Origin: Desulfovibrio sp.
GTDB lineage: Bacteria; Desulfobacterota; Desulfovibrionia; Desulfovibrionales; Desulfovibrionaceae
Length of the DNA: 64,000 bases
Direction: 5' to 3'
Assembly: GCA_031271265.1 (NCBI GenBank)
Contig: JAISWB010000028.1
Span: 1-64,000, forward strand
Below, piece by piece: positions 41,644 to 60,224 of this stretch. Numbering within the stretch: the first letter of the stretch is position 1; every line of letters starts with the position of its first letter. A model generated the notes under the pieces. It searched no databases, was not told where the DNA came from, and was given only the letters and a program-made list of their open reading frames with translations. Position numbers and translations under genes: made by a program.

Positions 41644-42783
41644 CTATTCACCGCTGCGGATTGCCGCGTAAGGTTCCGCGCCGGCCGCAAACAGCGCCGG
41701 AACAAGCGCGGCCAGTACCCCCGCGGCAACGGCCGAGAACAGGGTCGCAAGCATGCTGACCCCGACAAAGCCCGCAAAAGATGAAACGGAAAACGCGCCG
41801 GTCAGACGGCCGGCATCCGTTGCGAACAGCCAGACGGCCGCCGCGGGCATGCCCATGAGGCCGCCCAGGCATCCGAGTACGGCGGCCTCCGCGATGAGCA
41901 TTCTCAGGATGAAGCCGTTGCGGGCGCCCATGGCCTTGAGCAATCCGAATTCCCGCCTGCGTTCATGCGCCGTCAGGGCAAACACTGCGCCGGTAAACAG
42001 CAACGCCCCGGCCGTCACCAGCAACGCGGCAAGGCTCAAGCCCTCTCCCCGAAAAAGCCCGTAAAGCTGCTCATTGATGGTTTTCAGCATTTCGGGGCGG
42101 GTAATGACTTCAATACGATCAATATTCGCTTCAAGTTTATTAACCACGGCATCCAGATAGGTGCCCTGCCGCAGGCGGACCAAAATCCAGGAAGGCTCTG
42201 TAATATGTCCGACGGCCGCGGGGAAAAAAAGCGCTGTGTCGAGAAAGGAGTCCGTTTTCTTCAGCCGGCCCGAGAGCGCAAACTGCTTGCCGTTCACGTC
42301 GAGGGCGGCGCCGGGGCGGCTGTTTACGGCAACGCGCGCACCCGCCGCAATGCCGTCGGAACCCGCCCGGGATTGCCCGGCAGTGTTCTTTTCCAGCCAC
42401 GGCACGACGACGAAGTCGGTTGCCGGCTCAAAGGCGACGAGCGTTGCCTGAGCGCCTTCGAGCATTGCGCTGCCGATGTATTTCTGGACAGTCACGGCTT
42501 CCGTTTCGGCAAACGCCTTTACCCGTGCGGCCGTGCCGGCGGGCAAAACGCCTTGCGCGGGCGGTCCCTGGACAAATTCGGTATGCCCCTTGACCTTTGT
42601 CGCGGCCGGAACAACGGCCAGGTCCGGCGCCTGCAGCCTGCGGGCCTGTTCAAGTTCCTTGCGGGCGCCGCAGGCCGTGAAAAGGACAACGAACACCATC
42701 GCCGCCGCCGAGGCAACGGCAAAAACGATCAGGGCGGCATACGCCCTGCGTCCCCGCATATTCTTCAACGCCAACTGCCACAT
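41644..42783 (-). CDS. FtsX/MacB-type ABC permease (respiratory cluster)
   Basis: About 379 residues: one N-terminal membrane span (AALIVFAVASAAAMVFVVLF), a large periplasmic domain (about 50-250), and three C-terminal spans, with AHERRREFGLLKAMGARNGFILRMLIAE as the ATPase-coupling helix. This is the MacB/LolCE topology. It is the last gene of the long respiratory run and may pair with the ATPase at 44633 and the permease at 45377. I start at 42783 (MWQLALKNM), the usual beginning of the family. The cargo is unknown. Confidence 0.85.
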   Translation of the reverse strand: MWQLALKNMRGRRAYAALIVFAVASAAAMVFVVLFTACGARKELEQARRLQAPDLAVVPAATKVKGHTEFVQGPPAQGVLPAGTAARVKAFAETEAVTVQKYIGSAMLEGAQATLVAFEPATDFVVVPWLEKNTAGQSRAGSDGIAAGARVAVNSRPGAALDVNGKQFALSGRLKKTDSFLDTALFFPAAVGHITEPSWILVRLRQGTYLDAVVNKLEANIDRIEVITRPEMLKTINEQLYGLFRGEGLSLAALLVTAGALLFTGAVFALTAHERRREFGLLKAMGARNGFILRMLIAEAAVLGCLGGLMGMPAAAVWLFATDAGRLTGAFSVSSFAGFVGVSMLATLFSAVAAGVLAALVPALFAAGAEPYAAIRSGE

Positions 42784-42808
42784 GTCCGTTTCCCGTGCCG
42801 AAGGAGGC

Positions 42809-43981
42809 CTACCAGACAGGCCGCGCGGCGTCCGGCGTTTTTCTCCGCCTGCCCCGCCGCAGCAGACAGGCGCCGGCAATCACCGCCGCCGCAACGCCGA
42901 TGATGCCGTACCGCACAAGCGGCGACACGCCGCCGCCGGCAACCGGCAACAGTTTCGGCAGGTCCGCATCCGTGTACGACAACAGGCCGAACGTCGTGCC
43001 GGCAAGGATGACGGGCGGCTCGCCGGGTTTGACATAGAGTTTGTGCATAAAGGCGTTGTCCAGGCCGTTGTTGATGTCCACCCAGGTTGCGCCTTTATCC
43101 ACGCTCCGGTAAGCCCCGCCCCAGGCCCCGACATAGACCGTGCCGGGGTAAGCCGGCGTCGCGGCAAAAGAGAACACCGTAGTTGTGAGCAGGCCGGTTT
43201 CCTGCCAGGTTCTTCCTCCGTCCAGGGTCCGGAATACGCCTCCGTTGGCCTCGCCGACGTAAAAATCCGTCGGCGTAGCCGGATGATAGGATCCGGCCAG
43301 CACGATGTCTGGGTTTTTCGGGTCGATATGCAGGGCAAGAATGCTCAGGCTGCTCAATCCCTCATTGACGTCCACCCAGGAAACCCCGCCGTTGCCGCTT
43401 TTAAAGACCCCGGCGCCGCCCGTGGCCGCGAACAGGTATTGCGGGTTCTTCGGATCGACGGCCAGGGCGTTGACGTTCACCGTGCGTTTGAAACCGGACG
43501 ACATATGCCAATTTTTGCCGCCGTTGGTACTCAGCGCCGCCCCGCCCATGATGCCGATGTAGATGAGGTTGGGGTCCTTCGGACTGATGAGGATGCACCG
43601 GACATTTAGGTTGGGCAGACCTTCGTTGACGGTCTGCCAGGTATTGCCGCCGTCGGAACTCTTGTACAGGCCCGCGCCGTCATACCCGACATACAATTCC
43701 CTGCTGTTGAGATGGTTGACGGCAACCGAACTCGGAAACACGCCCTCCGGCAACAGATTCGCGCCGAGCGGAACCCATTCCGTCCCGCCGTCGGCACTTT
43801 TCAGCAGGCCGCGGGATGTCGCGGCATACAGCGTGTCGGGCCGCGCCGGGTCGCTGATGAACGACACCACATGCACTTTGTCGAGGGCAATTTTATGCCA
43901 GATATTTTCCCCTGACCGGGCCGGAGAAGCGACCACGCAGAGAAAACCGAAAATTACCGGTATGCAGCATGCTCTGATCAC
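42809..43981 (-). CDS. Membrane-anchored Asp-box (YCF48/BNR) beta-propeller protein
   Basis: A GTG start at 43981 gives 390 residues with a Sec signal peptide (CCIPVIFGFLCVVASPARS). At least six Asp-box repeats follow at intervals of about 45-50 residues: SADGGTEW, SSDGGNTW, STNGGKNW, SGNGGVSW, TLDGGRTW and SVDKGATW. They predict a periplasmic six- or seven-bladed propeller. A C-terminal span (YGIIGVAAAVIAGACLLRR) anchors it. YCF48-like propellers elsewhere help to assemble membrane cofactor proteins; an assembly role for the neighbouring copper/heme enzymes is a reasonable inference. The frame is open upstream through repeat DNA. Confidence 0.8.
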   Translation of the reverse strand: MIRACCIPVIFGFLCVVASPARSGENIWHKIALDKVHVVSFISDPARPDTLYAATSRGLLKSADGGTEWVPLGANLLPEGVFPSSVAVNHLNSRELYVGYDGAGLYKSSDGGNTWQTVNEGLPNLNVRCILISPKDPNLIYIGIMGGAALSTNGGKNWHMSSGFKRTVNVNALAVDPKNPQYLFAATGGAGVFKSGNGGVSWVDVNEGLSSLSILALHIDPKNPDIVLAGSYHPATPTDFYVGEANGGVFRTLDGGRTWQETGLLTTTVFSFAATPAYPGTVYVGAWGGAYRSVDKGATWVDINNGLDNAFMHKLYVKPGEPPVILAGTTFGLLSYTDADLPKLLPVAGGGVSPLVRYGIIGVAAAVIAGACLLRRGRRRKTPDAARPVW

Positions 43982-44033
43982 GACATCACCGCCGGTGTTA
44001 TTCTGTTTCCGAGTTTGCAACGCAGGCAAATAT

Positions 44034-44104
44034 GTTTCAATCCATAGATGTCGCACTCCACATCCGGCTCCGTCCGCCGGATGACCCTGCCCCGGCGGAT
44101 AGAA
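44034..44104 (-). repeat. Dispersed hairpin repeat, family A, copy 3 (split)
   Basis: Read on the minus strand: CCGCCGGGGC hairpin, then CATCCGGC-loop-GCCGGATG, TGGA, and after about 14 extra bases GGATTGAAAC. The insertion separates the stem from its tail. It occupies most of the 248-base gap before the propeller gene. Confidence 0.65.
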
Positions 44105-44229
44105 CCGACCGGCATATATCCCCCCTGAAGGGAGAAGTTTCAAATCATAAATGAATTTCAGATGAGAAAATCGTTGCTCCGCTTTGCCTGCGTATGCGTT
44201 ATACCTGCATTGTCGACTGCGCAATGGAA

Positions 44230-44631
44230 TCAGGGGTGGACAATTTTCCATTCCCGTTGAACGCGGACCAGATCCATGCTCGAATCGGAAGAATACAGGC
44301 CGAATTCCAAAGGGACAACGACCCTGGTCGCAACGACGGCCGTATCTTTCGTAATGTTTTCCCCTGTTACTTCCAGGTGCATGTCCGGCGCGTACATGGC
44401 CGCCCTGTCGATAAACTGGTTGAAAGAATTATTATAGTGCCTGAGGCTGATGAAGCCGTAGGCTTTTTTATAATCCCGGCCCTTCAGGGCCGAGAAATAA
44501 TCTTCGACGACCTGCGTCGGAGACACCGCCGGCAATTTGATGTTGTCGAGCCAGTACTGCACGCCGGCGACCCCGGCTGCCGCAACCAGCAAACAACCCA
44601 GCAACAGCGTCGCTTTTTTCCCGATCGTCAT
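44230..44631 (-). CDS. Membrane-anchored NTF2-like (DUF4878-type) protein
   Basis: The 133-residue protein starts two bases after the ATPase stop. A hydrophobic N-terminus (TLLLGCLLVAAAGVAGVQYW) acts as an anchor and includes LLGC, a weak lipobox. The rest (TQVVEDYFSALKGRDYKKAYGFIS ... WKIVHP) resembles small NTF2-like/DUF4878 domains that sit in the periplasm. Its place in the ABC set suggests an accessory subunit. No enzymatic motif is visible. Confidence 0.6.
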   Translation of the reverse strand: MTIGKKATLLLGCLLVAAAGVAGVQYWLDNIKLPAVSPTQVVEDYFSALKGRDYKKAYGFISLRHYNNSFNQFIDRAAMYAPDMHLEVTGENITKDTAVVATRVVVPLEFGLYSSDSSMDLVRVQREWKIVHP

Positions 44632-44632
44632 A

Positions 44633-45370
44633 TCACAACACCTCTCCCTGCGCCGAAACCGCCGGAGCAAGGGCATTCCCTCCCTGCGCCGAAGCTTCCG
44701 GGGCAAGGGCACTCCCTGCATACGGCAAAAGACCGCCGTTTTTCAACACATACGCCCTGCCGAGCCCGGCGTAATCCAAAGCGTGGGTCACCATGACAAC
44801 GGTTGTCCCCCGGTGGTTGATGCCTTGAAAAAGGTTCATGATTTCCGCTTCGGTTGTTTCATCCAGGTCGCCCGTAGGCTCGTCGGCCAGAATTATGGAC
44901 GGCCGGTTCATCATCGCCCTGGCTATCGCCACCCTGCGCTGCTGTCCCCCGGAGAGCTGAGACGGGTACAAGGCGTTTTTTCCCGTTATCCCGACCTGTT
45001 CCAAAAGCGATTCGGCGAAGTCCCGGTCCGCGTGATTGGGGTTCCTGTCGCTGAAGGCCACGGGCAAAAGGACGTTGTCCAATACCGTCAAGGGGGCAAT
45101 CAGGCTGGGAAACTGAAACACAAAGCCGATCTTCCTGTTGCGCAGGGCCGCCAGTTCAGGCTCCGGCAACTGCAGGATATCGACCTCGTCAATGCAAACG
45201 CTCCCCTCGTCAGGTCTGGTCAACGCGCCCGCGATGCTGAGCAGCGTCGTCTTGCCTCCGCCGGAACGTCCTGTAATGATGACGAATGCGCCGTCATCAA
45301 CGGTCAGGCTTACCCGATTCAACACCTCAACATTTTTATAACGTTTGCCGAGAGCTTCCAGTCGAATCAT
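44633..45370 (-). CDS. MacB/LolD-type ABC ATPase (respiratory cluster)
   Basis: The 245-residue ATPase has all nucleotide-binding motifs: [13 protein letters not shown] (Walker A), Q-loop in [26 protein letters not shown] (signature) and [13 protein letters not shown] (Walker B). It would drive the FtsX-type permeases encoded on both sides. The last 26 residues are a duplicated 12-residue block from a 36-base DNA repeat (44645-44716), absent from normal LolD proteins. Its start lies six bases after the upstream permease stop. Confidence 0.9.
44645..44716 (-). repeat. In-frame tandem repeat, 2 x 36 bp, at the ATPase C-terminus
   Basis: Two 36-base units (44645-44680 and 44681-44716) share most positions and encode the [12 protein letters not shown]-type tail. 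The unit keeps the reading frame. Confidence 0.7.
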
Positions 45371-45376
45371 CGCCGG

Positions 45377-46585
45377 TCATTCTCCTTTCCTGACGGCTTC
45401 GTACGGTTCGATCCGGCTGATGCGGCCGGCCGGATACAGGGCGCCGAGTATTCCCACCGCCGTTGTCGCGGCCGCGGTCAGCACTGCGACCTGAATAAAA
45501 TACGCCGTGTCCGGCCACATGTACATGTTGCCGATCATCTCCGTAATCGTTTCGCGACTGAACCGGGTCGCGGCCCATCCGACGATGACGCCGAGCAGAC
45601 CGCCGCTTACGGCAAGGCAGGCCGCCTCAAGGACGATCAGCCGGAAGATCAGCCCGCGTCCGGCGCCCATAGCCATGAACAAGCCGATCTCCCGCATTCT
45701 CTGCCGGACGGACAAGGTGAACAGGGTCCCCGTCAGCGCCGCGGCCAGGATGCCGAACAGTACGCCCGCCGTAAAAAGGGCGTCGACCAGACTCTGCAAC
45801 TGCCCGCTGAAGGAACGCATCAGCGCGCCGGGAGTATAGGTTTTGATCTGCGGAAGTTGTTTTTCAATATTTCCTGAGACTTCCGTAGGATTTGCCCCTT
45901 CAGCGACCTTTACCAGAATGGTTGATATCTGATCCCGCTTGACCGGTACGGTGTAGAGCGGCGAGCCCTGAATCATCTGGTAGGCCGTCTCCATGGTGAG
46001 AAATACCGTATAGTCCGTGCCCAGCCCCGTCGGCTCGAGAATGGAGGCGACGGTAAACGGTTTTCCCATAAACATCAGCCGTTGCCCGATGGCTTTGGCC
46101 GGAGTGCCGACCACCGCCGAAATGACCTTGGCTCCCACAATGATCTGGTCGTTCCGCAACGGCTCCGCCATTTTCCGCAATACCCACGGGGTAATGGTGA
46201 AGTCGCGTTCCTGATCGTAGCCCACCAGAGCCACCGGCGCCACGCAACATGCCGCATCCAGGCTGCGCAGATAAACCTGAGCGCAGGTCTGCCGTACCCC
46301 CGGCACCTTGCGCACCGCATCTTCCAGGGACGCCGGCATGTAAAACGATGTCGGGTTGCCGGAAATCAAAGCCGACAGCGCGTCTTCCCCGGCAGAGGCC
46401 GGGACCGCCACAATATCTGCGCCCAGACGTTCGGCGGCCGTCCGCAGAGTAACGTGAATGCCCCTGGACAGTATCGCGGCCGAGAACAACACGGCACAGG
46501 CCAAGGCAACAGCGCCGACCGTCAGCCATGTGCGGAACGGCTTCCGTTTCAGGTTTTGTCCGACCAGATAAAAAATCCGCCGCAT
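45377..46585 (-). CDS. FtsX/MacB-type ABC permease (respiratory cluster)
   Basis: The 402-residue protein has the same plan as the permease at 41644: an N-terminal span (LTVGAVALACAVLFSAAIL), a periplasmic domain, and three C-terminal spans with LSVRQRMREIGLFMAMGAGRGLIFRLIVLE. The two permeases differ enough to form a heterodimer around the shared ATPase, as LolC/LolE do. It begins 65 bases after the YtkA-like gene. Confidence 0.85.
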   Translation of the reverse strand: MRRIFYLVGQNLKRKPFRTWLTVGAVALACAVLFSAAILSRGIHVTLRTAAERLGADIVAVPASAGEDALSALISGNPTSFYMPASLEDAVRKVPGVRQTCAQVYLRSLDAACCVAPVALVGYDQERDFTITPWVLRKMAEPLRNDQIIVGAKVISAVVGTPAKAIGQRLMFMGKPFTVASILEPTGLGTDYTVFLTMETAYQMIQGSPLYTVPVKRDQISTILVKVAEGANPTEVSGNIEKQLPQIKTYTPGALMRSFSGQLQSLVDALFTAGVLFGILAAALTGTLFTLSVRQRMREIGLFMAMGAGRGLIFRLIVLEAACLAVSGGLLGVIVGWAATRFSRETITEMIGNMYMWPDTAYFIQVAVLTAAATTAVGILGALYPAGRISRIEPYEAVRKGE

Positions 46586-46650: not shown

Positions 46651-47091
46651 TCACTCCGCTATATCGAGGTCGAAAGACTGCCGGCGGCGTTGTCCGCCGT
46701 CGTCCGTGAATTCCGCCGTGATCCGCCAAAAGCCGCCGTGCCCGTACTGCACCAGCGCGAAGTATTGTCCGGCATCGGCTTCCTGAAACGCCAACTCCAT
46801 GGGGTATCCCTGCATGGGCATATCTGGCATCCACACCCCGCCTTTTATCGTCCGCCCTTGCACCGAAGCGCCGCGGGCATCGCGCAACGTCAGGCCGACC
46901 TGCACCACGCCGGGCTTGTTGGCCGTCCGCAAGGTCCAGGTATATTCCGGCGTAATTTTTTCAGCGGTTATATGCGGCGCTTTTTGACCGCCCGCGGCCG
47001 CCGTAGCCGGTCCGACCCGCAAAAGGGTCGCCGGCAGGCTCAGAAGGCAAATTACCGTGAAAATAAGGCATGGTACCGTGCAACGCTTTAT
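46651..47091 (-). CDS. Exported YtkA/FixH-like protein with a Met-rich motif
   Basis: The mature part (about 115 residues) resembles the YtkA/FixH beta-sandwich family: TWTLRTANKPGVVQVGLTLRDA, then WMPDMPMQGYPMELAF, then QYFALVQYGHGGFWRI. The Met-rich block and following His could bind copper. A clean Sec signal (KRCTVPCLIFTVICLLSLPA) precedes it. No ATG, GTG or TTG fits: the only codon placed correctly after GGAGG is ATA at 47091. The frame is open to 47241, but that part is repeat family B. The start is therefore uncertain. Confidence 0.6.
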   Translation of the reverse strand: MKRCTVPCLIFTVICLLSLPATLLRVGPATAAAGGQKAPHITAEKITPEYTWTLRTANKPGVVQVGLTLRDARGASVQGRTIKGGVWMPDMPMQGYPMELAFQEADAGQYFALVQYGHGGFWRITAEFTDDGGQRRRQSFDLDIAE

Positions 47092-47102
47092 TTTTATGCC
47101 TC

Positions 47103-47166
47103 CGGCGGCCGGGGCTCCGCCCTTTGAGCCCGCCGGGGTCAGCCTGAGCCGGCGTAAGGCTGATGA
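47103..47166 (-). repeat. Dispersed GC-rich repeat, family B, copy 2
   Basis: On the minus strand it reads ATCAGCCTTACGCCGGCTCA, then GACCCCGGCGGGC and GGAGCCCCGGCC. It shares ordered words with 39163-39230 and 55372-55446 and lies just upstream of the YtkA-like gene. Confidence 0.5.
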
Positions 47167-47337
47167 TTTCCCCCGGACCCCTTCAATAGAGGCCGATGCG
47201 AAAATGTAAGCGTTACGCGGTAATAGTCGTGAACAGGTCATTAATGTATCCCGTGAGTTACGGTTGCCGGCGGGGGTGCCGCATAACGCTCCGCCGTAAG
47301 TGCGTAGGCGTTGCGCAGGCTCGGCGCGGCGAACAGC

Positions 47338-47910
47338 TTACCAGCTAGGCACATCGGCGTCCATCATCCAAAAATATTGCGGGAAGCGATAATGGAGGGC
47401 CAACCATTTATTATCATAACGCTTTGAAAAATCGGATATTTTTGTAGGGGTTGCGGCAAAGGACCGGCCGAAGCCTTTTTTGTGACAGCTTGCGCAACTC
47501 CACAGCGGCGTGGTGTCGGCGGTATGGAACGTCACTGTCGAAAATACCGCAAAAAAGGCTGCACACAGGAGAATAAGTGTCCGTTGCAGCCGTTTTCCCC
47601 CCCTGCTCCCGCGCGCGACGAACGGCAGGAGGATCAGTCCCGCCGTAATCAGCGCGGGGATCCAAAAGACGCCTACCATCTCCATGCCGTCATGAAAATA
47701 GCGCGTCGCCTGAAAAATCATCACGAAAAGCCAGTCCGGCTGGGGGACGGCGGAGGTGGAAACCGGGTCGGCAATTTCCTGTTCCTGTATCCCGAACGCG
47801 GCCAAAGCGAAAAGCAGCAGGACCGTGCCTGCGCAGAGCAACGCTCCGTACAGGAGCTGCCTGAATCCGAAGGGTCGGGTTTCCGCCGGGTTGTACTTGT
47901 GCGTCGCCAT
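47338..47910 (-). CDS. Cytochrome b C-terminal subunit with a c-type heme (second bc module)
   Basis: The 190-residue protein matches the C-terminal half of cytochrome b (subunit IV), with about three spans, followed by one heme c site (CASCH, near residue 140). The Qo-site PEWY motif reads PDWL here (AVPQPDWLFVMIFQ), so the key Glu and Tyr are both changed. It follows its cytochrome b partner by 15 bases. No Rieske gene accompanies this pair. Confidence 0.82.
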   Translation of the reverse strand: MATHKYNPAETRPFGFRQLLYGALLCAGTVLLLFALAAFGIQEQEIADPVSTSAVPQPDWLFVMIFQATRYFHDGMEMVGVFWIPALITAGLILLPFVARGSRGGKRLQRTLILLCAAFFAVFSTVTFHTADTTPLWSCASCHKKGFGRSFAATPTKISDFSKRYDNKWLALHYRFPQYFWMMDADVPSW

Positions 47911-47925
47911 CGAAAAAGCGCCTCG

Positions 47926-48540
47926 CTACATAGGCTCGGCAACGCCGAGTTTGCGCACCATAAAAAAATGAACGGTGAGGAATGCACAGGCCGCCGCGGG
48001 AAGGACAAGCGTATGTATGACAAACCACCTGCCGACCGGCACGATGCCGTTCAGCGTATCCCCATGCAGCAGCCAATCCGTTGCCCCGGAAAACAGGGGC
48101 AGGGCTTCGATCCAGTTCCCCATGGTTTTGACGGCCCAATAGGCCCTGAAATCCCACGGCAACAGGTATCCGGTCACGGCGAACGCGGCGGTAAGCAGCA
48201 ACAGCATGACGCCGCTGAGCCAGTTCAACTGCCGGGGCGCGCGGAAAGCGCCGTGCAGGAGAGTGCGGAAAACATGCGCGAGCAGGAAAAGCACCATTAG
48301 AAAAGCGCCCCAGCGGTGGAGCGAACGCGCAAATTTGCCGAGGAAGATGTTCTTCTCAATGAATTCAATGCTCGCCCAGGCTTCGCCGGGCGACGGCTGA
48401 AAAAACATCGCCAGGTATATCCCCGACAGGACCTGCAGCAGAAATACCAGCAAGGTCAGCCCGCCGAAGCAGTACAGCCAGGTTACCCATTCGGGAATCG
48501 GCGAGAACAGCCGTTCACACCATTGTTGCTTTTCCGACAT
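47926..48540 (-). CDS. Cytochrome b N-terminal subunit (second bc module)
   Basis: The 204-residue protein has four membrane spans. The heme-ligand His pairs are SLHRWGAF...LAHVF (14 apart) and VIHTLVL...TVHFF (15 apart, as in b6-type proteins). It should hold two b hemes and connect the quinone pool to the c-type heme of the next gene. I start at 48540 (MSEKQQWCERL); the frame runs upstream to 48588 only through dispersed-repeat DNA. Confidence 0.85.
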   Translation of the reverse strand: MSEKQQWCERLFSPIPEWVTWLYCFGGLTLLVFLLQVLSGIYLAMFFQPSPGEAWASIEFIEKNIFLGKFARSLHRWGAFLMVLFLLAHVFRTLLHGAFRAPRQLNWLSGVMLLLLTAAFAVTGYLLPWDFRAYWAVKTMGNWIEALPLFSGATDWLLHGDTLNGIVPVGRWFVIHTLVLPAAACAFLTVHFFMVRKLGVAEPM

Positions 48541-48550
48541 AACAACCTGT

Positions 48551-48610
48551 GTTTCAATCCACATCCGGATCCCGGTCCGCCGGATCATAAACGGCTTTCC
48601 GGCGGGGAAC
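48551..48610 (-). repeat. Dispersed hairpin repeat, family A, copy 4
   Basis: On the minus strand: CCCCGCCGG, then ATCCGG-loop-CCGGAT and TGTGGATTGAAAC. It lies in the spacer between the NosZ-like gene and the second cytochrome b gene. Confidence 0.65.
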
Positions 48611-48697: not shown

Positions 48698-50275
48698 TTA
48701 TGCTTCGACGATAAACCATCCGCGCATTTCCAAATGCAGCGGCCCGCAAAAATAGGAGCAGAACATGGCGAATTTGCCGGGTTTGTCGGCGACAAACTCG
48801 AAAATAACCGATTTGCCCTGCGGCACGCCCCAGTTCGTTTGCAGCCCGTATTCGTTGATGATGAAGCCGTGCACCGGCGCAGGGTCGTTGGTCAGCCCCG
48901 TGGCTTTGTCGATGTTTGTCAGAATGACGCGCACCTTGTCGCCTTTTTTCACCGTGACGGTTTCGGGCTTGAAGCCGTAGCTGAACTCCTGCAGGCGGAT
49001 TTCCACCACGCCGTCGGCGGTCTTCGACATGCCGGGAGCGCCCTTGTCCTCGGGAACCAGTCTGGCCTTCACGTTCGGGTCTTTATGCGGCGCCCACAGG
49101 GAGGCATGTCCTTCCGGGGGCAGTTTGGCGTTCAGATATCCGAGAACGGCGTCGGCCTTGATGATTTTCGCGTTATGCGGCTCGGGCACGGTCGGAGCCC
49201 TGGCGACGACTTCCTCCTTGGCCAGGTCGATAAGTTCGACGTTGGTCGGATCCTGATTGGAGATGGAACCCGCAAAAAGCCCTGTGGAATACTTGTTCCA
49301 CACGGTGATATACTTGCTGTCGGGCGTTATCTGCAGGTGGCCCGGCCGATAATGGACGGGGATTTTTTTCACCATGGTCATTGTTCCGAGGTCGATTTTG
49401 GCCACGGCATTGTCGACGAACAAGGTTGTGTAGGCCCATTTCCCGTCATTGGTAAAGACGGTATGCAGCGGTCCCGGCGCGGGACTCTTGTTGAACCCCG
49501 CAACGGCAGGCGTCAGGTCGATCTCTCTGACCACTTCCATTGTGGCGATGTCGATGACCGGGATATTACCGGAGAGTTTGCCCGCGACAAAGGCAAGTTT
49601 GCCGTCCATGGTCAGGTCTATGCCGTGCGGATTTTTGCCTGCGGGAATAAACTTGACGCGCTTGAAACCGTCCACCTCGATCACGTGGACGCCGGAGCGG
49701 TAATAGTCGGTGGCCATACAATATTTTCCGTCATGCGTAACCAGAAGATAGTCGGGGGCCGATTCCTGCCCGTCGGAAACGTCGATGACTTCGACCTTGC
49801 CGCTTGCAATGTCGATTTTGGCCATTTTGCCGGACAGCTCGCCTGTGGCGAAAAGGGTTTTGCCGTCCGGTGTTATGGCGATGTGGTGCGGTCCGAAGGG
49901 CGCGGGGATGTTGATCTTGCGGACAAGTTCCTGGGTGGCGATGTCCACGACCCCGACGGAGGAGTCGCCTTTGTCGTTTATGAAAACGTAGCGTCCGTCG
50001 GGAGTCCCGTTGGTGCCCGGCTTGTTGGACCCGGAAAATACCGGTTCATGGGTGTCGACCCCGACCGGAATCAGCTTGAGGGTTTGCAGACTGGGCAGGC
50101 CGATAACCTGCAGTGTTCCGGAAATGCCGCCGGAAGCAAAAATGACGTATTCATCTTTGGCATTGAGTTGCGCGGCTCCGCCCGGCACGGCTGCGTACGC
50201 CTCCCATCCCGCCGTTACCGCAAAAAGCGTTATCAGCAATTTTACGGCTGTCTGCACGATTTTTACGTTTTTCAT
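48698..50275 (-). CDS. Sec-exported NosZ-like CuA-containing beta-propeller oxidoreductase
   Basis: The 525-residue protein has a Sec signal (cut near residue 29), not the Tat signal of clade I NosZ. Residues 40-410 form a propeller with NosZ-like phrases: DGRYVFINDK, NPHGIDLTMDGKLAFVAGKL, GPLHTVF, AYTTLF, VHYRPGH and EPHNAKI. His at 76, 130/131, 217, 271, 313 and 367 fall at CuZ-ligand positions, but the DxHHxH motif reads DTHEPV, so one ligand position is Glu77. Residues 425-525 are a cupredoxin domain with a complete CuA set: H469, C506, C510, H514, M517 (CSYFCGPLHLEM). At 525 residues it is about 100 shorter than usual NosZ. N2O is the likely but unproven substrate. Confidence 0.8.
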   Translation of the reverse strand: MKNVKIVQTAVKLLITLFAVTAGWEAYAAVPGGAAQLNAKDEYVIFASGGISGTLQVIGLPSLQTLKLIPVGVDTHEPVFSGSNKPGTNGTPDGRYVFINDKGDSSVGVVDIATQELVRKINIPAPFGPHHIAITPDGKTLFATGELSGKMAKIDIASGKVEVIDVSDGQESAPDYLLVTHDGKYCMATDYYRSGVHVIEVDGFKRVKFIPAGKNPHGIDLTMDGKLAFVAGKLSGNIPVIDIATMEVVREIDLTPAVAGFNKSPAPGPLHTVFTNDGKWAYTTLFVDNAVAKIDLGTMTMVKKIPVHYRPGHLQITPDSKYITVWNKYSTGLFAGSISNQDPTNVELIDLAKEEVVARAPTVPEPHNAKIIKADAVLGYLNAKLPPEGHASLWAPHKDPNVKARLVPEDKGAPGMSKTADGVVEIRLQEFSYGFKPETVTVKKGDKVRVILTNIDKATGLTNDPAPVHGFIINEYGLQTNWGVPQGKSVIFEFVADKPGKFAMFCSYFCGPLHLEMRGWFIVEA

Positions 50276-50416: not shown

Positions 50417-51118
50417 TTATTTCTTTCGGGAAAGAAATGCCGAAACTTCGTGCCTTTCCGCATCGCTGAGCGGAATTACGGACATAATCGTCGTTTGGCT
50501 GACAATTTGCGGATTGATGATCACCCGCTCAATATACGCCCTGTTTGCTCTTGAACCGATTTGCGTCAAATCGGGAGCCATAAATCCGCCCTTGCCGTCT
50601 ATTGCATGGCAAAGCATGCAGAATTTGTTGAAAATCTCCCGCCCCGCGGTGATTTGTTCCTCGGTAATCGGGGGCAGGACAATCTTGTCGACATGCGACT
50701 CGTCTTCCACGACGGACAGCGCCGTCAAGGCAACAACGGCAACAACGCCTGCCAGACTGAGCGCGGCGGCGCACGGCCGTTTCCTGATATCCGTCGTCGG
50801 GCTTGTGTCGAGAAACGGAAGCAGTATGAGCAGCGTCAAGGTCAGGAGAGGGAGAAAAAAGGTGCCGACGACGACAAGCGGCCCTTCGAAATATTTCAGC
50901 AGTTGAAAATAGAATAAGAAATACCATTCCGGCCGGGGCACATAGGTTGTGTCGCCGGGATCGGCCATTTCCTCCAAAGGCACCTGCCAAACATAGGCGG
51001 CGAGTACTGTTGCCGCAAAAACCGCCAGAGCGGCAAGGGATTCGACGAACAGATGGTTCGGGTAAAAGGAGCCGGGGTTGCCGGCCTGCGTTGCGGAAGG
51101 CGCGTCTCTGTTCATCAT
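50417..51118 (-). CDS. Cytochrome b C-terminal subunit fused to a monoheme cytochrome c (first bc module)
   Basis: Residues 1-130 are the cytochrome b C-terminal half with three spans and an intact Qo motif (YVPRPEWYFLFYF). Residues 145-233 form a class I cytochrome c (FNKFCMLCHAIDGKGG, distal Met in TTIMSVIPLSD). This fusion puts the electron-exit heme on the bc complex itself and can pass electrons to a periplasmic CuA protein. It follows cytochrome b by 15 bases and precedes the NosZ-like gene by about 140. Confidence 0.88.
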   Translation of the reverse strand: MMNRDAPSATQAGNPGSFYPNHLFVESLAALAVFAATVLAAYVWQVPLEEMADPGDTTYVPRPEWYFLFYFQLLKYFEGPLVVVGTFFLPLLTLTLLILLPFLDTSPTTDIRKRPCAAALSLAGVVAVVALTALSVVEDESHVDKIVLPPITEEQITAGREIFNKFCMLCHAIDGKGGFMAPDLTQIGSRANRAYIERVIINPQIVSQTTIMSVIPLSDAERHEVSAFLSRKK

Positions 51119-51133
51119 TGATGCTCTACCTCG

Positions 51134-51802
51134 CTACAGCGGGCGGGAAATCCCCTGGCGCCGCACCATAAAGAAGTGGGCCGCCAGAAAAATCACCAGG
51201 AGTGCCGGCAGAAACATGACATGGACAACATAAAAGCGGACCAGGGTGAGCATGCCCACCTCGCTCCCTCCGCGCAATGCCGCAGCCAAAAAATTGCCGA
51301 CCAGAGGAATGCTTTCGACCATGTTCACGCCGACAGTTGTAGCCCAATAGGCTTTTTGATCCCACGGCAACAAATAGCCGGTAAAACAGAACCCCATGAC
51401 GGTCAGCAAAAGCACTATGCCGACAATCCAGTTTAATTCGCGCGGATTTTTGTACGATCCGGTCAGAACCACACGCATCATGTGCAAGAAGACCATAACC
51501 ACCGCCGCGCTTGCCCCGACTCTGTGTATACCTCGGACCAAACCGCCGAAGGCAAGTTCGTTCTGAATGTAGTTGACGCCGGCATAGGCGTTGTCCGGCG
51601 AAGGGACATAATAAAGCATAAGAAATACGCCGGTCAATATTTGAAGTAGAAGTATAAATAAACATATACCGCCAAAACAGTATATCAATGCTGTTGGTGT
51701 CTTCAAAGGATTTGCATGATCCGGAACCTGATGATCCGCTATTTCCTTCAGCAGTGGGCTTAGGTTTAAGCGGTCGTCAAGGAATTTATAAATTCGGCTC
51801 AT
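51134..51802 (-). CDS. Cytochrome b N-terminal subunit (first bc module)
   Basis: The 222-residue protein is a four-span b6-type cytochrome b. Heme His pairs are GIHRVGAS...FLHMM (14 apart) and YVVHVMF...AAHFF (15 apart). LLPWDQKAYWATTVG is the Qo-side segment. It oxidises quinol together with the Rieske protein, whose stop overlaps its start by four bases. Confidence 0.9.
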   Translation of the reverse strand: MSRIYKFLDDRLNLSPLLKEIADHQVPDHANPLKTPTALIYCFGGICLFILLLQILTGVFLMLYYVPSPDNAYAGVNYIQNELAFGGLVRGIHRVGASAAVVMVFLHMMRVVLTGSYKNPRELNWIVGIVLLLTVMGFCFTGYLLPWDQKAYWATTVGVNMVESIPLVGNFLAAALRGGSEVGMLTLVRFYVVHVMFLPALLVIFLAAHFFMVRRQGISRPL

Positions 51803-52290
51803 TGCTGGGCATCCTTTATAAAAATTTTATTTACTTCCACTTTGACCATCAAGCGTGTCAACGGCTTAGGTGGAGGTCCGGCGGTTACATTTCCCTGTAT
51901 ATCAAATACTCCTCCATGACAAGGACAGGTAAATTGTTTGGAAGAGGCGTTCCACTCGACACCGCAGCCGAGATGGGTACATTTGTTGGTTAATGCCGTG
52001 ATCTTGCCGTCCGCATGTTTCACGACAAAGGCGGTTTTGCGCGTTTCCGCCGTCTTCCAACCGTCGCGCCGGGTATACTGATAGGTTACTTTTGCAGGTT
52101 CACCGGCGTTCATCAGGTTGAGGTCCGCTATCGCAATCCAGTCATGCTGCTCTTTTTTCAGCGCCGGGGCAATGAAAAAGCCGACCAGAGGGATACCCAG
52201 ACCCAGCCCTAAAAGACCGGCGACCACCTTAATTCCGTTGACGAAAAATCGGCGTCTGGACAATGTCTCGTTTGCTTCGGGCAGTTCCAC
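51799..52290 (-). CDS. Rieske iron-sulfur protein
   Basis: The 163-residue protein has an N-terminal anchor preceded by RRRFF (VNGIKVVAGLLGLGLGIPLVGFFI), as expected for a Tat-exported Rieske protein. The cluster motifs are CTHLGCGVEWN and CPCHGGVFD, with two Cys and two His ligands and the disulfide Cys pair. It is the first gene of the long minus-strand respiratory run and is the only Rieske gene for two cytochrome b pairs. Confidence 0.93.
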   Translation of the reverse strand: MELPEANETLSRRRFFVNGIKVVAGLLGLGLGIPLVGFFIAPALKKEQHDWIAIADLNLMNAGEPAKVTYQYTRRDGWKTAETRKTAFVVKHADGKITALTNKCTHLGCGVEWNASSKQFTCPCHGGVFDIQGNVTAGPPPKPLTRLMVKVEVNKIFIKDAQQ

Positions 52291-52878: not shown

Positions 52879-53460
52879 CTAATTGTGGCAGGCCGATTCC
52901 TCGCACCCGGCCATGCGCTTCAAAGTCGGCGCGTCGTCCCCGGCCTGCTCCGTATGGCAGGCGACACAACTGTAAAAACGTCCCTTGGGCGCGGCGTGCG
53001 TGGACAGGTAGTAGGAACGGACGCTTTTATCTTTAGGATTGAGGTTGTCGTGACAGTCCTGCGTCGCGCAGGCCAGATGCCTCGTCATGCCGTCGACGGG
53101 ATGGTGGCAGCTCGCGCAGACTTCGGAATCCGGAAGCAGCTGGCTGTTCGCGTTACCTCCTCCCTCGGGCTGCGCCGGGGAACGCGCCGATACGCCCGCC
53201 CCGCTCCGCAACGCGGGCGCGTTGAGATGGGTCTGATGGCTGAACAGGACGGGCCTGCGGGACCAGTTCAACTCCGTCGGCTCGGGAGGCGGCGATGCGG
53301 CCGCCGCTGTGGCTGTGCCGGCGGCGACGGCTGTGGCTGCTGCAACGGCTGCGACGATGATTGCAACTACCGCGAGGGAGACCCTAACTGCTGCGATGAG
53401 GGCTGTAACTGCTGCGTCTGCGCAAAGCAGGCATGCGGAGAAAATGCCGTTTTTTTTCAT
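52879..53460 (-). CDS. Exported tetraheme c3-like cytochrome
   Basis: The 193-residue protein has an unusually long, Ala/Val-rich hydrophobic leader (about residues 14-55) encoded by repetitive GCN/GTN codons. The mature part has four heme-c sites: CASCH, CATQDCH, CVACH and CEESACH, the last two spacings as in class III c3 cytochromes, with extra His (FSHQTHLN) for axial ligation. It is the last gene of the iron-uptake run, where the Campylobacter counterpart has thioredoxin-like genes, so it may supply electrons to reduce Fe3+. Confidence 0.85.
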   Translation of the reverse strand: MKKNGIFSACLLCADAAVTALIAAVRVSLAVVAIIVAAVAAATAVAAGTATAAAASPPPEPTELNWSRRPVLFSHQTHLNAPALRSGAGVSARSPAQPEGGGNANSQLLPDSEVCASCHHPVDGMTRHLACATQDCHDNLNPKDKSVRSYYLSTHAAPKGRFYSCVACHTEQAGDDAPTLKRMAGCEESACHN

Positions 53461-53495
53461 GCCGCGTCCGCCGAATTGCCCGGATGCGCGTCGCC

Positions 53496-54176
53496 TCAGG
53501 CCACCATGGAGCGCGCCGGCGCGCCGTCCCGAACCATGCGGCCGAATTCAAGCTGCACGATGCGCTCCGCATGTTCCGCCACTTCCGGCGAATGGGTAAC
53601 TACAATGATGGTACTCCCTTCGCCGTGCAACTGGTGAAAAATGTCCAAGACCGCGGCCTGATTGCTTTCATCCAGGTTGCCCGTAGGCTCGTCTGCCAAA
53701 ATAAGCTTGGGATGATTGATCAGCGCGCGCGCGATGCACAGCCTCTGTTGCTCGCCGCCCGAAAGCTGCCGGGGCAGATGCCCGGCCCGATGCCCGAGGC
53801 CGACGCGTTCCAGGGCCTGCAAGGCTTCCTCTTCGTCCGCCATGCTGTGGTAATACTGGGCAATCATCACGTTTTCCACGGCCGTGAGGTAGGAAATCAG
53901 GTGGAATTCCTGAAAAATCAGGCCGATCTTGTCTCTGCGGATGGCTGTAAGGTCCTTGGTGTTCAGGCGGGATATCTTCTCTCCGTCAAGGATGACCGTG
54001 CCGTGCGTGGGCTTGTTCATGCAACCGACGATGTTCATCAGCGTCGTTTTGCCCGAGCCCGACGACCCCATGATTGCCGTCCATTCGCCCCGGCGTATGC
54101 TGAGCGTGATATTCCGCAAGGCCGTCACGGAGCCGTACACCATGGAAACATCGTGTAATTCAAGGATGTTTTTCAT
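53496..54176 (-). CDS. MacB/LolD-type ABC ATPase (iron cluster)
   Basis: The 226-residue ATPase contains IMGSSGSGKTTLMNIVGC (Walker A), FQEFHLISYLTA (Q-loop), LSGGEQQRLCIARALI and [13 protein letters not shown]. It serves the two FtsX permeases upstream. The arrangement FTR1, P19, DUF2318, FtsX, FtsX, ATPase parallels the Campylobacter Cj1658-Cj1663 iron system. Confidence 0.9.
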   Translation of the reverse strand: MKNILELHDVSMVYGSVTALRNITLSIRRGEWTAIMGSSGSGKTTLMNIVGCMNKPTHGTVILDGEKISRLNTKDLTAIRRDKIGLIFQEFHLISYLTAVENVMIAQYYHSMADEEEALQALERVGLGHRAGHLPRQLSGGEQQRLCIARALINHPKLILADEPTGNLDESNQAAVLDIFHQLHGEGSTIIVVTHSPEVAEHAERIVQLEFGRMVRDGAPARSMVA

Positions 54177-54200
54177 AGATATTTTCCTTGTTAATCTACT

Positions 54201-55337
54201 CTATTCCCCGCGCAGCGCCGTTGCCGGTTCCACTTCGGCGGCGCGGGAAACCGGGAAAAAGGACGCCGCCAGCGTGACAAGCAGCGAGGCGCACAGGGTC
54301 AGTCCGACAAGGAAGACAGGCAGGCTGACTTCGCGCCCGAATACGCTCATGCTCACGACCTGAGCAAAAACGTAGCCGGTGCAGGAGCCGAGAAGCGCTC
54401 CCGCGCAGGCCAGCACCGCTCCCTCGCCCGCGAACTCCCCGATAATGCTCCGGTTTTCCGCTCCGAGGGCCTTTTTCAAGCCTATTTCCTTTCTGCGCTC
54501 CATTACCACGGTCATCATGCCGGTGCCCACGCAGACCATGGTCAGCAGGAGAACCACGGCCGTCACCAGACAGACAAGCACCTGCAGTTTGTTCAGCACC
54601 GTCGCTTCGGAATGCATGATGCGTTTGACGGGGCGGGGGGCTATACCGGGGACTTCCTTCCGGATTTGTTCAGCCAGCCGGGTGATTTCTCCGCTTTCGG
54701 CGGCAAGGCTGACTTCCACGGCATCAGCCCGGCCGGGCGAGCCGAGCAGCGCCTCAAGAGCGCGCGCGGGCATCAGCACAAAAGCGTCTTCGGGGCCGCC
54801 GGTGCGGAGTATGCCGCTGACCGTAAATTCCTTTTTAATCCTGCGGCCCCTGGGCGGAACCGCTTCCAGCACTATGGACGTGCCTGCGTACAGGCGCGCG
54901 TTCTCAGCGATATCCGTGCCGACCAGCACCTGGTTGTCGGCTGCCGGCCATGTGCCGTGCACCTGCCGGTACGGTCCGGTTTTGCGTGCGGCGTCCATGT
55001 CGACGCCCACCGCCGTAAGCCCCTGCTTGTTGTAGTACAGCGTCTCATAGCGCAGGGGCGCCATGCCGACGAGTTTGTCCTTCGGCAGCAGTTCCTCTGC
55101 TTGGCGGAGTTCCCCCGGACTCAGTACGGCGTTGTCGCCGGAAGGGACGAGGACGAGGTTGGCGCCGTATGAGCGGAATTCCCGGCCCATCTGGCGCGGA
55201 ATGTCGAAATACACCGCGCCCATGCCCAGAACCACGGTCGCACCGATGATCACCGCCGTCAGGGCGAGCGCCAGACGCGAACGGCGGCGCAACATCGAAT
55301 AGAACACCATCTTCGCGTACATCGTTTTACGGTTCAT
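54201..55337 (-). CDS. FtsX-type permease (iron cluster, second)
   Basis: About 378 residues, with one N-terminal span, a periplasmic domain, and three C-terminal spans carrying VVMERRKEIGLKKALGAENRSIIGEFAGEG. I start at the ATG at 55337, preceded by AAAGGA; the frame is open to 55412 only through repeat DNA. It forms a pair with the next upstream permease. In Campylobacter the equivalents are needed for iron from some sources; the moved molecule is not known. Confidence 0.87.
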   Translation of the reverse strand: MNRKTMYAKMVFYSMLRRRSRLALALTAVIIGATVVLGMGAVYFDIPRQMGREFRSYGANLVLVPSGDNAVLSPGELRQAEELLPKDKLVGMAPLRYETLYYNKQGLTAVGVDMDAARKTGPYRQVHGTWPAADNQVLVGTDIAENARLYAGTSIVLEAVPPRGRRIKKEFTVSGILRTGGPEDAFVLMPARALEALLGSPGRADAVEVSLAAESGEITRLAEQIRKEVPGIAPRPVKRIMHSEATVLNKLQVLVCLVTAVVLLLTMVCVGTGMMTVVMERRKEIGLKKALGAENRSIIGEFAGEGAVLACAGALLGSCTGYVFAQVVSMSVFGREVSLPVFLVGLTLCASLLVTLAASFFPVSRAAEVEPATALRGE

Positions 55338-55371
55338 CAAAAATTCCTTTGAGGAAATCATTTCCCCCGGC

Positions 55372-55446
55372 AGGCCGGCCTGAGCAGGCGCAAGGCCGAA
55401 CATTCGTCCCAATGCTCCCGGCGGGGTTCAAAGCAGAGCCCCGAAG
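55372..55446 (+). repeat. Dispersed GC-rich repeat, family B, copy 3
   Basis: Contains CAGGCGCAAGGCC, then CTCCCGGCGGGGTTCAAAG and GAGCCCCGAA, in the same order as the other two copies though more diverged. It lies between the two FtsX genes of the iron cluster. Confidence 0.45.
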
Positions 55447-55467
55447 TAATCAGCTTTTCCTTTAAAA

Positions 55468-56763
55468 TTATCTTCCATGCAGCACTTCCGCGGGTTTGAG
55501 GCGCAGCAACATGCGGCAGGCAGGCAGACTGCCGCCGGTGGTCACCGCGAGCACCAGCAGGGCGACAAGCGGGACGACCAGTCCTTTTGCGGACACCGCC
55601 GCGCCGAAGACGCTTTGTCCGATGACCTGCGCCAGGCCGAGCCCGGCAACGTAGCCGACCACGCCGCCGACAAGAGCCGCGGTCAGCGTTTCCGCCAGAA
55701 CGAGCAGCACGATCTCCCCGTCGCCCGCGCCCAGAGCCTTGAGCAGGCCGATCTCCGTACTGCGTTCCATGACGTTCGCCGTCACAAGACCGGCGACGGC
55801 CAGCGCGGAACAGGCGAGACTGAGTACGGTGAGCAGCAGCATGAGCAGGCTGGTCTTCTGCAGTATGGTGCCCTCGGAAGCCGCTACCTGCAGCACGGGC
55901 TTGGCGCGCGACTCCGTCAGGACTTCCTCGATCTGGAAGGCAATGGCGCTTGCATAGGCCGTACAATACCAGATCTCCCATTCGTGACGGGAAAGACTGT
56001 TCGGATTCTGCGCCGCCCGTTTGGCAAGGTCGTTCTCGGGCGTGGTAAGGGCGCTCACTTCCACGCGCCGGACCTTGCCTTCCAGGCCGGACAACCGCTG
56101 CACCACGGCCAGGGGCGCGAGCAGCACCTCATCCTCCTTGTCCCCGGAATGGAACAGCGAACGCACCGTCAGTTCCGCCCCGCGCTTTTCGCCCGTCCGG
56201 TCTTCAACCGCGACCCGTATCCTGTCGCCGATGCGCAGCTTGTGCCGGTCCGCCAAAAGTCCGCCGACCATGACCCCGTCCGCGTCGTCGTCGTCGAGCC
56301 ACGGCCCCTGCACGTCCCACCAGGATTTCAGATTGATGACGCCGGCATGCGCGGATTCTCCCGTGGGAATGTCCAGACGCCGGGCAAACCATGTGCCCAG
56401 CAGCGTCACCCCGCCGATTCCCTCCGCTTCGGCCCGGACGTCAAGATAAGGCGTGAAATCCACAATGTTGAAGGCCCAGAAGATGGTTTTCATTTTAGGC
56501 AGTTCGGCTTCTCGCAAAAATTTGTCGGCAACGCCCTCCCCTTCCCCGATCCCGTAGAGATCGCCGAGCAAAGACGCGCCGCGCGACTCGACCGTGATAT
56601 TGGCCCCGTAGGTCCTGAGCGCCTGGTTCACCTTGTCGCCCACATCCAGCATGACGTTGAGCATGGCCGTAGCCAGTGAAATACCCAGCGCCACGGTGCC
56701 GGCCGTCATCAGAAATTTGCGTTTGCGGCGGGTAACGGCCCGGCCGATCATGCGCAGAAACAC
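55468..56763 (-). CDS. FtsX-type permease (iron cluster, first)
   Basis: About 431 residues with MacB/LolCE topology: N-terminal RKRKFLMTAGTVALGISLATAML, a long periplasmic domain, and three C-terminal spans starting at VMERSTEIGLLKALGAGDGEIVLLVLAE. A GTG at 56763 has AAGGAG six bases upstream and is preferred over the ATG at 56790, which would put that site inside the gene. Similar permease pairs occur in Ftr1-P19 clusters. Confidence 0.87.
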   Translation of the reverse strand: MFLRMIGRAVTRRKRKFLMTAGTVALGISLATAMLNVMLDVGDKVNQALRTYGANITVESRGASLLGDLYGIGEGEGVADKFLREAELPKMKTIFWAFNIVDFTPYLDVRAEAEGIGGVTLLGTWFARRLDIPTGESAHAGVINLKSWWDVQGPWLDDDDADGVMVGGLLADRHKLRIGDRIRVAVEDRTGEKRGAELTVRSLFHSGDKEDEVLLAPLAVVQRLSGLEGKVRRVEVSALTTPENDLAKRAAQNPNSLSRHEWEIWYCTAYASAIAFQIEEVLTESRAKPVLQVAASEGTILQKTSLLMLLLTVLSLACSALAVAGLVTANVMERSTEIGLLKALGAGDGEIVLLVLAETLTAALVGGVVGYVAGLGLAQVIGQSVFGAAVSAKGLVVPLVALLVLAVTTGGSLPACRMLLRLKPAEVLHGR

Positions 56764-56906
56764 GGCGAACTCCTTGCATTCGACTGTCAAGGCAAAATCG
56801 TGTCCACGCGGTTTTGCCCCGTCGTTTACGGCGGGAACGCGTTCCCGCCCTGACCGGCGAAATACTCCGTATTCCGGCGTGCCGGCCCCCGTTGCACGGA
56901 CCGGGG

Positions 56907-58160
56907 TTACATGAACCGGGGCGCCTCGGCTTCAAGGTCCTCAATGTCGATGGTCAGCAGGCCGCCCTCAATCCGGAAAGGCAGCGGCACAGGATTGCAG
57001 CCCCCGGCAAAGCCGATGGTGGACGTGTTCATGACCACGTCGCACAGCGTGCAGACCACCTGCCCCTTGCGCTCGTAATACCCGCCGCCGGCGCCGCAGA
57101 CCTCGCAGGCGTCAAGGCCCACCCCGTAGGCGCTTTCACTTTTTTTAATCACAATATAGCGTATTTCCACACCTTTACGGGAAGTGTAGACGTAGCGGTG
57201 CAGGGCGCCGTCGCCCACCTCGGAGAGCGGCAGCCGAATCAGTCCTTCCGTCGCCGGCGTTGCCGCCGGCGGCGAAAGCTCGACCTCCTTACCGTCGAAG
57301 TGTACGCCCGCCGTCAGCAGCAGCACGCCGAGCAGCAGCGAGGCAAGGACGGCCTTGCTCCAGCGCATGCGCGCGATCCGACGGCTTTTCGCCTTGCGTC
57401 TCTCGGCCGGATTGTTTCCCTCAATGGAAACATCGCCGGAGCGCGCCGTGAGAAAGACGGCGGGCAGGGCGGCAACGGCCAGACTGCAGAAAAAGAGCGG
57501 CCGGTCCTTGCCGAGCAGGAAAATTATCAGGTCCAGGGCCGTATCGGAGCGGGGCAGAAGACCGCGCCCGAGCAGTATCTGCCCGGCGGAGATCAGTTGC
57601 CGGCAGACGGCGAGGGACACGGCGGCGAACAGCACGGGGAATACGACCCGCGCGGGCACGGCGGCGCATGCCGCGTACAGCGCCCGGCAGACAAGCAGGC
57701 AGAGCAGCAGGCCGGCCAGGTAGCCCGCGACGATAAAGACGAATTCGCTGCTGACGACCTGAACGACGCCCACGGCGAAATACGAGGGGAATATGAAAAT
57801 GTCGGGCAGATAATAGGCGCCCCAGGAAGCGGCGAGGACGAGGACGACGCCCCGCAACGGGGGCGAGGCCGCTTTTTCGGCCGGGAAGGAACGGCTGCGG
57901 AAAAGCAGGAAGAGCAGCAGCAACTCGGCGGGGATCATGACGCCGAGCACGGCGAGATCATAATATTCTCGCACCACGAAACCGGTGCCCGTTTTGAGGG
58001 CGGCCAGCGTGCCGGAAATCAGTACGCCGAGCGCCGCGCCGCGTCCGAGCGGCCCGCGGAGTTCGAAAAGCTCCCGTCCGCGGACGAAACCCGGCAGAAT
58101 GCCCGCCGGCACGGCAACCGGCAACAGCGTTGCTGCGACAAGAATCAAAAAATGCAACAT
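56907..58160 (-). CDS. DUF2318 membrane protein (iron cluster)
   Basis: The 417-residue protein has about eight or nine spans in residues 1-290, then a periplasmic DUF2318 domain with CEVCGAGGGYYERKGQVVCTLCD and GGCNPVPLPF; two CxxC pairs and a nearby Cys suggest metal or cluster binding. It corresponds to Cj1660 of the Campylobacter iron system and may move electrons or metal across the membrane. AGGAAG precedes the ATG at 58160. Confidence 0.85.
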   Translation of the reverse strand: MLHFLILVAATLLPVAVPAGILPGFVRGRELFELRGPLGRGAALGVLISGTLAALKTGTGFVVREYYDLAVLGVMIPAELLLLFLLFRSRSFPAEKAASPPLRGVVLVLAASWGAYYLPDIFIFPSYFAVGVVQVVSSEFVFIVAGYLAGLLLCLLVCRALYAACAAVPARVVFPVLFAAVSLAVCRQLISAGQILLGRGLLPRSDTALDLIIFLLGKDRPLFFCSLAVAALPAVFLTARSGDVSIEGNNPAERRKAKSRRIARMRWSKAVLASLLLGVLLLTAGVHFDGKEVELSPPAATPATEGLIRLPLSEVGDGALHRYVYTSRKGVEIRYIVIKKSESAYGVGLDACEVCGAGGGYYERKGQVVCTLCDVVMNTSTIGFAGGCNPVPLPFRIEGGLLTIDIEDLEAEAPRFM

Positions 58161-58289
58161 GGACTTCCTGTCCGCATGGGAGCATGTCGACCCGGCGGGC
58201 GCCCGTTTTGACTGCCGCCGGAGCAATTTCACAGCGAAATCTCAAGGATCTGCAGGGCAGCCTGTGCGGCGATACCGTCAAACAAAGCA

Positions 58290-58323
58290 GCCTGTGCGGC
58301 CGGTTTACGTCGGCCGCACAGGC
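58290..58323. promoter_or_regulatory. Perfect 13-bp stem-loop between the P19 and DUF2318 genes
   Basis: GCCTGTGCGGCCG (58290-58302) pairs exactly with CGGCCGCACAGGC (58311-58323) around an 8-base loop, and GCAGCCTGTGCGG also occurs upstream at 58257. No T-run follows. It lies inside the operon and may stabilise the P19 message or attenuate the downstream genes. Confidence 0.5.
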
Positions 58324-58376
58324 AGTGTACAGAAAAGGAATGTCGTTTTCAATACAAAGGCGCTGATTTTCTCAGC

Positions 58377-58955
58377 CTACCATTTCCGGGGAACCCACTT
58401 GAAGTCCCAACTCACAACCAGGGGTTCTTTCCAGAAGCGGCCCGGCACGCCCGTTTCCTTGTCCACGTGCAGCAGGTAGCCCTGTTTTTCGGGGTTGTCG
58501 ATGATGAAGGTCACCTTGTAGTCGCCCGCGCCGTCGAGTTTGACGTTGTTGCCGTAATGGGGGCCGTCGCTGGCGCTCATGGGCATGAAGCTGCCCTCGA
58601 TGACCTTGCCGCCTTTTTTCTCAATGCGGTATTTCACGGTCAGGTTGGGCACGAAATCGCCCGCGCCGTAGCCGAGATTGTTGCCTTCGGCCGCGCTTAT
58701 GTCGGCTTCCAGGTGCATGTCGGCCTTGGAGGCGGGCAGTCCGCCGAGCGAGGCTGGTTCCATGTCGACGGGCTGGAAGTAGACGCCGGCCACCTGCAAC
58801 GGACCGACTTTCTGTTCGTCGCCGAGTGGGAACTCCTCAAAGCCCTTTTCCGTTCCCGGAGCCGGGGCGGCCGCCCCGGCCGCGGAGGCAAAGCCCATGA
58901 GCAACAGGGTCAATGCCGGGATGCAGACAAGTTTGCGAAATACTGCTTTTGTCAT
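58377..58955 (-). CDS. P19/Tp34-type periplasmic iron-binding protein
   Basis: The 192-residue protein has a Sec signal (PALTLLLMGFASAAGAAA) and the immunoglobulin-like P19 fold: FEEFPLGDEQKVGPLQVAGVYFQPVDM, KADMHLEADISA (His and Glu copper/iron ligands), SFMPMSASDGPHYG (Met and His ligands) and a C-terminal ending in WDFKWVPRKW. P19 proteins bind Cu and Fe and work with FTR1-type permeases. It follows the FTR1 gene by 26 bases. Confidence 0.92.
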   Translation of the reverse strand: MTKAVFRKLVCIPALTLLLMGFASAAGAAAPAPGTEKGFEEFPLGDEQKVGPLQVAGVYFQPVDMEPASLGGLPASKADMHLEADISAAEGNNLGYGAGDFVPNLTVKYRIEKKGGKVIEGSFMPMSASDGPHYGNNVKLDGAGDYKVTFIIDNPEKQGYLLHVDKETGVPGRFWKEPLVVSWDFKWVPRKW

Positions 58956-58981
58956 CTCTTCTGTCCTCCGATGCTTTCGGC

Positions 58982-60181: not shown

Positions 60182-60224
60182 TCCCGGCTCTCCTGCGGGC
60201 AAGTTGTTGGGAACGTTGCGCAGA

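Follow-up and report, generated by a model that had tools for sequence, protein, structure and literature searches.

Nitrous oxide (N2O) is a greenhouse gas; among the bacterial enzymes that degrade it, clade III is a third family, described only recently. The stretch of DNA analysed here, called the window below (64,000 nucleotides of a Desulfovibrio sp., positions 1 to 64,000 of the forward strand of contig JAISWB010000028.1), codes for a member of this family at 48698–50275 on the minus strand. The gene product, a lactonase-type nitrous-oxide reductase (L-NosZ) of 525 amino acids with an ATG start, was assigned by the NCBIfam profile NF052460, alignment, an AlphaFold2 model searched with Foldseek, and a phylogenetic tree. 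Our joint reading, to which we give a probability of about 90%, is that this clade III N2O reductase is fed by quinol, that its CuZ site is most likely ligated by H131 and would be assembled without NosD and NosL, and that the cassette encoding it was moved horizontally.

If this reading is right, the propeller domain would hold a CuZ-type copper–sulfide cluster and the cupredoxin domain would hold CuA; in a head-to-tail dimer the CuA of one subunit would feed the CuZ of the other, where N2O would be reduced to N2 and water. Electrons would pass from quinol to the Rieske/b6/c complexes encoded alongside, and from these to CuA.

Family, fold and phylogeny

The window protein matches the L-NosZ equivalog NF052460 with 870 bits (cut-off 700, E = 3.7e-262, profile positions 1–479 of 480). 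With a dN/dS of 0.058 against the nearest relative (locus L002), this shows that the open reading frame is not due to chance. The neighbouring genes gave dN/dS values of 0.125 and 0.170; L-NosZ is under strong purifying selection, and comparison of related loci showed it to be the best conserved gene of its cassette. The original prediction, made from the letters of the window, had placed an open reading frame here with no strand given; the 525 codons from ATG were found on the minus strand. Its further statements about the gene held as well: the protein is shorter than usual (most solved NosZ chains have 581–646 residues), its N-terminus appears by eye to be a hydrophobic Sec-type signal with no twin arginine (a helix at residues 3–28 in the AlphaFold2 model), and the gene lies between two bc-type modules, one with Rieske, cytochrome b6 and subunit IV-c genes (50417–52290), the other a second cytochrome b6/subunit IV-c pair (47338–48588).

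The equivalog profiles of the other two clades scored far below their cut-offs of 625 bits: 232.5 bits for clade II (TIGR04246) and 185.4 bits for clade I (TIGR04244). With Pfam we saw a YncE/lactonase propeller, a nos_propeller repeat and a cupredoxin domain; the top sequence match in PDB was NosZ of Shewanella denitrificans (E = 2.9e-42). The AlphaFold2 model, built from 17 natural sequences, is of middling quality (pLDDT 75, pTM 0.70), mostly 80–97 in the propeller and weak near the CuA residues 509–515. All 50 PDB fold matches listed by Foldseek were NosZ, with a poor superposition of the whole chain (TM about 0.54, rmsd about 17).

The tree included 23 clade III proteins (the window protein and 22 others), NosZ of clades I and II and one archaeal NosZ. 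The 23 clade III rows, on long branches, were split from clades I and II with support 100/100, and inside clade III the subclade of the window protein was deeply split from the other one. The original prediction had left it undecided whether such a branch had been described, and had proposed either a distinct branch of N2O reductases or a relative acting on another small molecule. The first alternative is the one favoured by the tree and by NF052460; the branch is already known and named (L-NosZ, clade III, in NCBIfam), and the window protein is a further member of it. The family (L-N2OR, L-NosZ) was reportedly introduced by He et al. (2025, Nature 646:152–160; doi 10.1038/s41586-025-09401-4, PubMed 40836093). 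Four other articles cite or mention this clade III family (PMC13274427, PMC13122619, PMC12569097, PMC13033781).

Clade II NosZ, which is Sec-dependent, shares with the window protein the propeller and cupredoxin domains, six CuZ histidines, all CuA ligands and the lack of a twin-arginine signal; it differs in having histidine where the window protein has glutamate at the second His position of blade II, and in being longer by ∼100 residues. TAT-dependent clade I NosZ has the same fold; however, the window protein has no twin-arginine signal. The repeats of YncE/lactonase seven-bladed propellers match the window protein (about 1e-18), but the latter also carries a CuA cupredoxin domain and the set of CuZ histidines. 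We also observed, in another genome of the phylum Desulfobacterota (G374, contig C21, locus L048), a 741-residue frame that falls near clade I NosZ on a long branch and has a D-T-H-H motif and a full CuA site.

The CuA and CuZ sites

Alignment with canonical NosZ bore out the residues named in the original prediction. H469, C506, C510, H514 and M517 align with the canonical CuA residues; H76, H130, H217, H271, H313 and H367 align with six canonical CuZ histidines; the motif DTHEPV (residues 74–79) aligns with canonical D-x-H-H-P, E77 falling in the column of the second blade II histidine. K293, K328, E365 and F509 also align with canonical residues near the metal sites.

In canonical enzymes the CuZ ligands are two consecutive histidines from blade II and one from each of blades I, III, V, VI and VII, with none from blade IV; replacement of any of six of the seven leads to loss of metalation (PMC11573801). 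In clade III, blade II carries D-[TL]-H-E (D-T-H-E in the window protein) instead of the D-x-H-H of clades I and II; blade III carries H-H (H130–H131 in the window protein) instead of a single His followed by Gly, Val, Ala or Ser; blade IV (APDY) has no His ligand, as in canonical enzymes. The D-x-H-E and H-H motifs are common to all intact clade III members compared. The deficit of one CuZ ligand implied by the original prediction is not supported by the count: the loss in blade II is matched by H131, and the candidate ligands of the window protein are seven histidines (H76, H130, H131, H217, H271, H313 and H367). The presence of seven histidines would be most simply explained by a move of the double histidine one blade on, from II to III; as far as the alignment can tell, H131 is the most likely substitute for the seventh ligand, which was lost at E77.

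The main alternative is that E77 itself is the seventh ligand; one could also suppose that the cluster has fewer coppers, e.g. 3Cu:2S. E77 is as invariant across clade III as H131, and a 3Cu:2S site is possible in the canonical H382A variant, though that variant is inactive (PMC11573801). However, H131 is a new histidine that adjoins the canonical blade III ligand, and all 22 intact clade III proteins compared have it; we consider ligation by E77 or a smaller cluster rather unlikely.

The two subclades of clade III differ at the column of the CuA gating histidine (H583 in P. stutzeri, H579 in M. nauticus; PMC11573801): the deep subclade (L013–L016, L018, L037–L041) has Met, while the group of the window protein retains His and has its own cassette. 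This difference, the depth of the split and the glutamate at position 77, where canonical NosZ requires a ligand (the loss of metalation mentioned above), could be taken to suggest a copper enzyme derived from NosZ and sharing its fold that reduces another small molecule, or that lowers N2O as detoxification rather than in respiration. Such a role is quite improbable: the window's group scores higher with the L-NosZ equivalog than the deep members (854–880 versus 690–779 bits), the remaining site residues are all kept, and the co-encoded quinol-to-cytochrome c electron chain fits respiration. We found no sign of a substrate other than N2O. A degenerate or inactive paralogue, for which there is a precedent in the Nitrospinota relative described below, is barely credible here, as all ligands of the window protein are intact and its gene shows the low dN/dS and the conservation given above.

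The Nitrospinota L-NosZ paralogue (L017:1222-2760) no longer has the CuA Cys pair and lacks several CuZ histidines; not all members of the L-NosZ family can therefore be active reductases.

The cassette

L-NosZ is the fourth gene of a 12-gene cassette on the minus strand. The first three genes code for a Rieske [2Fe-2S] protein (51799–52290, PF00355), a cytochrome b6 type protein (51134–51802; 307.8 bits with the NCBIfam cytochrome b6 subfamily, below its cut-off of 325) and a subunit IV fused to cytochrome c (50417–51118, PF00032 and PF00034). L-NosZ is followed by a paralogue of the first cytochrome b6 type protein (47926–48588, PF00033) and a subunit IV-like protein with one CxxCH (47338–47910, weak PF00032 and TIGR01156). 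All five of these genes are conserved in their order. Wherever the cassette is complete, the two paralogous b6/subunit IV-c modules and the single Rieske gene are kept.

Next in order are an exported FixH/YtkA-like protein, a candidate copper-site accessory factor (46651–47241; weak PF05751/PF13115, both passed over cut-off by the homologue at L010); a MacB/FtsX-type ABC permease (45377–46585; PF12704, PF02687; conserved); an ABC ATPase of LolD/FtsE/MacB type (44633–45370; PF00005), closest to FtsE and LolD in NCBIfam, though below cut-off; a small membrane-anchored protein (44230–44721; weak DUF4829); a YCF48/sortilin-like beta-propeller (42809–44251; PF15902, PF14870; conserved) and a second FtsX-type permease (41644–42879; PF02687; conserved), the start codons of the last two being uncertain. 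The cassette recurs in related Desulfovibrionaceae metagenome-assembled genomes (MAGs), several of the loci being interrupted by contig ends, and in Sporomusa acidovorans, there with no FixH-like gene; this gene was not found at the L006 and L009 loci.

The deep clade III loci L016 and L018 have in common with the cassette only cytochrome b/subunit IV-type genes and the small DUF4829-like protein, whose homologues adjoin L-NosZ there; it is the sole non-cytochrome accessory gene common to the window and the deep loci. Its Sporomusa homologue is also weakly NTF2-like. Near L-NosZ the deep loci carry virginiamycin-lyase-like propellers (L018:14506-21500 and the corresponding stretch of L016), to which L018 adds several cytochromes c as well as a GldA/GldF-like ABC-2 transporter next to L-NosZ. 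The propellers or the ABC-2 transporter are perhaps the counterpart of the MacB-type genes of the window.

Upstream, the cassette adjoins an iron-uptake operon of FTR1/P19/FtrD type (52879–60202), which also encodes an FtsX-type ABC transporter of its own and a class III cytochrome c. We did not count these genes as part of the cassette: FTR1, P19 and FtrD have no match in any related locus.

Assembly of CuZ

We searched 15 genomes with L-NosZ for NosL, NosD and canonical NosZ. NosL was found in none of the 15; NosD over cut-off was likewise absent from all of them, with weak fragments below cut-off in three; canonical NosZ over cut-off was absent too. The source genome, which is 95.4% complete, thus lacks nosL and a nosD over cut-off, the pair that goes with NosZ of clades I and II. 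From these absences it is reasonable to infer that CuZ assembly differs from the usual one and that a dedicated alternative system is present. The MacB-type ABC transporter and the YCF48-like propeller are candidate assembly factors through guilt by association; CuZ would then probably be built by them together with the FixH-like protein.

Host, distribution and horizontal transfer

The source genome (2.55 Mb) belongs to a gut-type relative of Desulfovibrio in the Desulfovibrionaceae, and its nearest relatives are Desulfovibrio-type MAGs. One of them (L006) carries the sample code Nt197, which denotes the gut of Neocapritermes taracua, a termite (PMC7024585); judging from their names, other near relatives are termite-gut MAGs as well.

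Of the 288 genomes searched in the family, 11 have L-NosZ over cut-off, and 7 of these belong to the window's own genus; in the phylum it was found in 6 of 395 genomes. Among 398 genomes of Bacillota it was present in S. acidovorans only, the single case among 12 genomes of the Sporomusa family. Between the window and S. acidovorans L-NosZ is 84–85% identical, while phosphoglycerate mutase is 51% identical; the deep-clade hosts L016 and L018 are about as close by the mutase (48–50%), yet their L-NosZ is only 40–42% identical. The excess of L-NosZ identity over that of the mutase in Sporomusa supports horizontal transfer, by which the cassette would have passed between the Desulfovibrionaceae and Sporomusa lineages. 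As the tree does not separate the branch order inside the Desulfovibrionaceae/Sporomusa group, we claim no direction of transfer. A literature search for Sporomusa with nosZ returned nothing relevant.

Going further, one could speculate that the Desulfovibrionaceae/Sporomusa subclade possesses a self-contained mobile module for N2O respiration, with the double histidine in blade III, two b6/c complexes and MacB-type/YCF48-like CuZ assembly replacing NosDFYL; we hold this tentatively, at somewhat short of even odds. If true, gut bacteria with the module would consume N2O and be missed by primers for nosZ of clades I and II. A study of N2O in termites used clade I and II primers only (PMC12993464); are termite guts an N2O sink as yet uncounted? 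The present interest lies in the construction of CuZ without NosD and NosL and in the possible move of a ligand to another propeller blade. Since the cultured S. acidovorans DSM 3132 has nearly the same cassette, these questions can be addressed without the uncultured host.

Two observations concern the metabolism of the host. No dsrA over cut-off was detected in the source genome, while three sister genomes have it; this may reflect a loss of sulfate reduction in the host or a gap in the assembly. A gene for an NrfA-type nitrite reductase is present.
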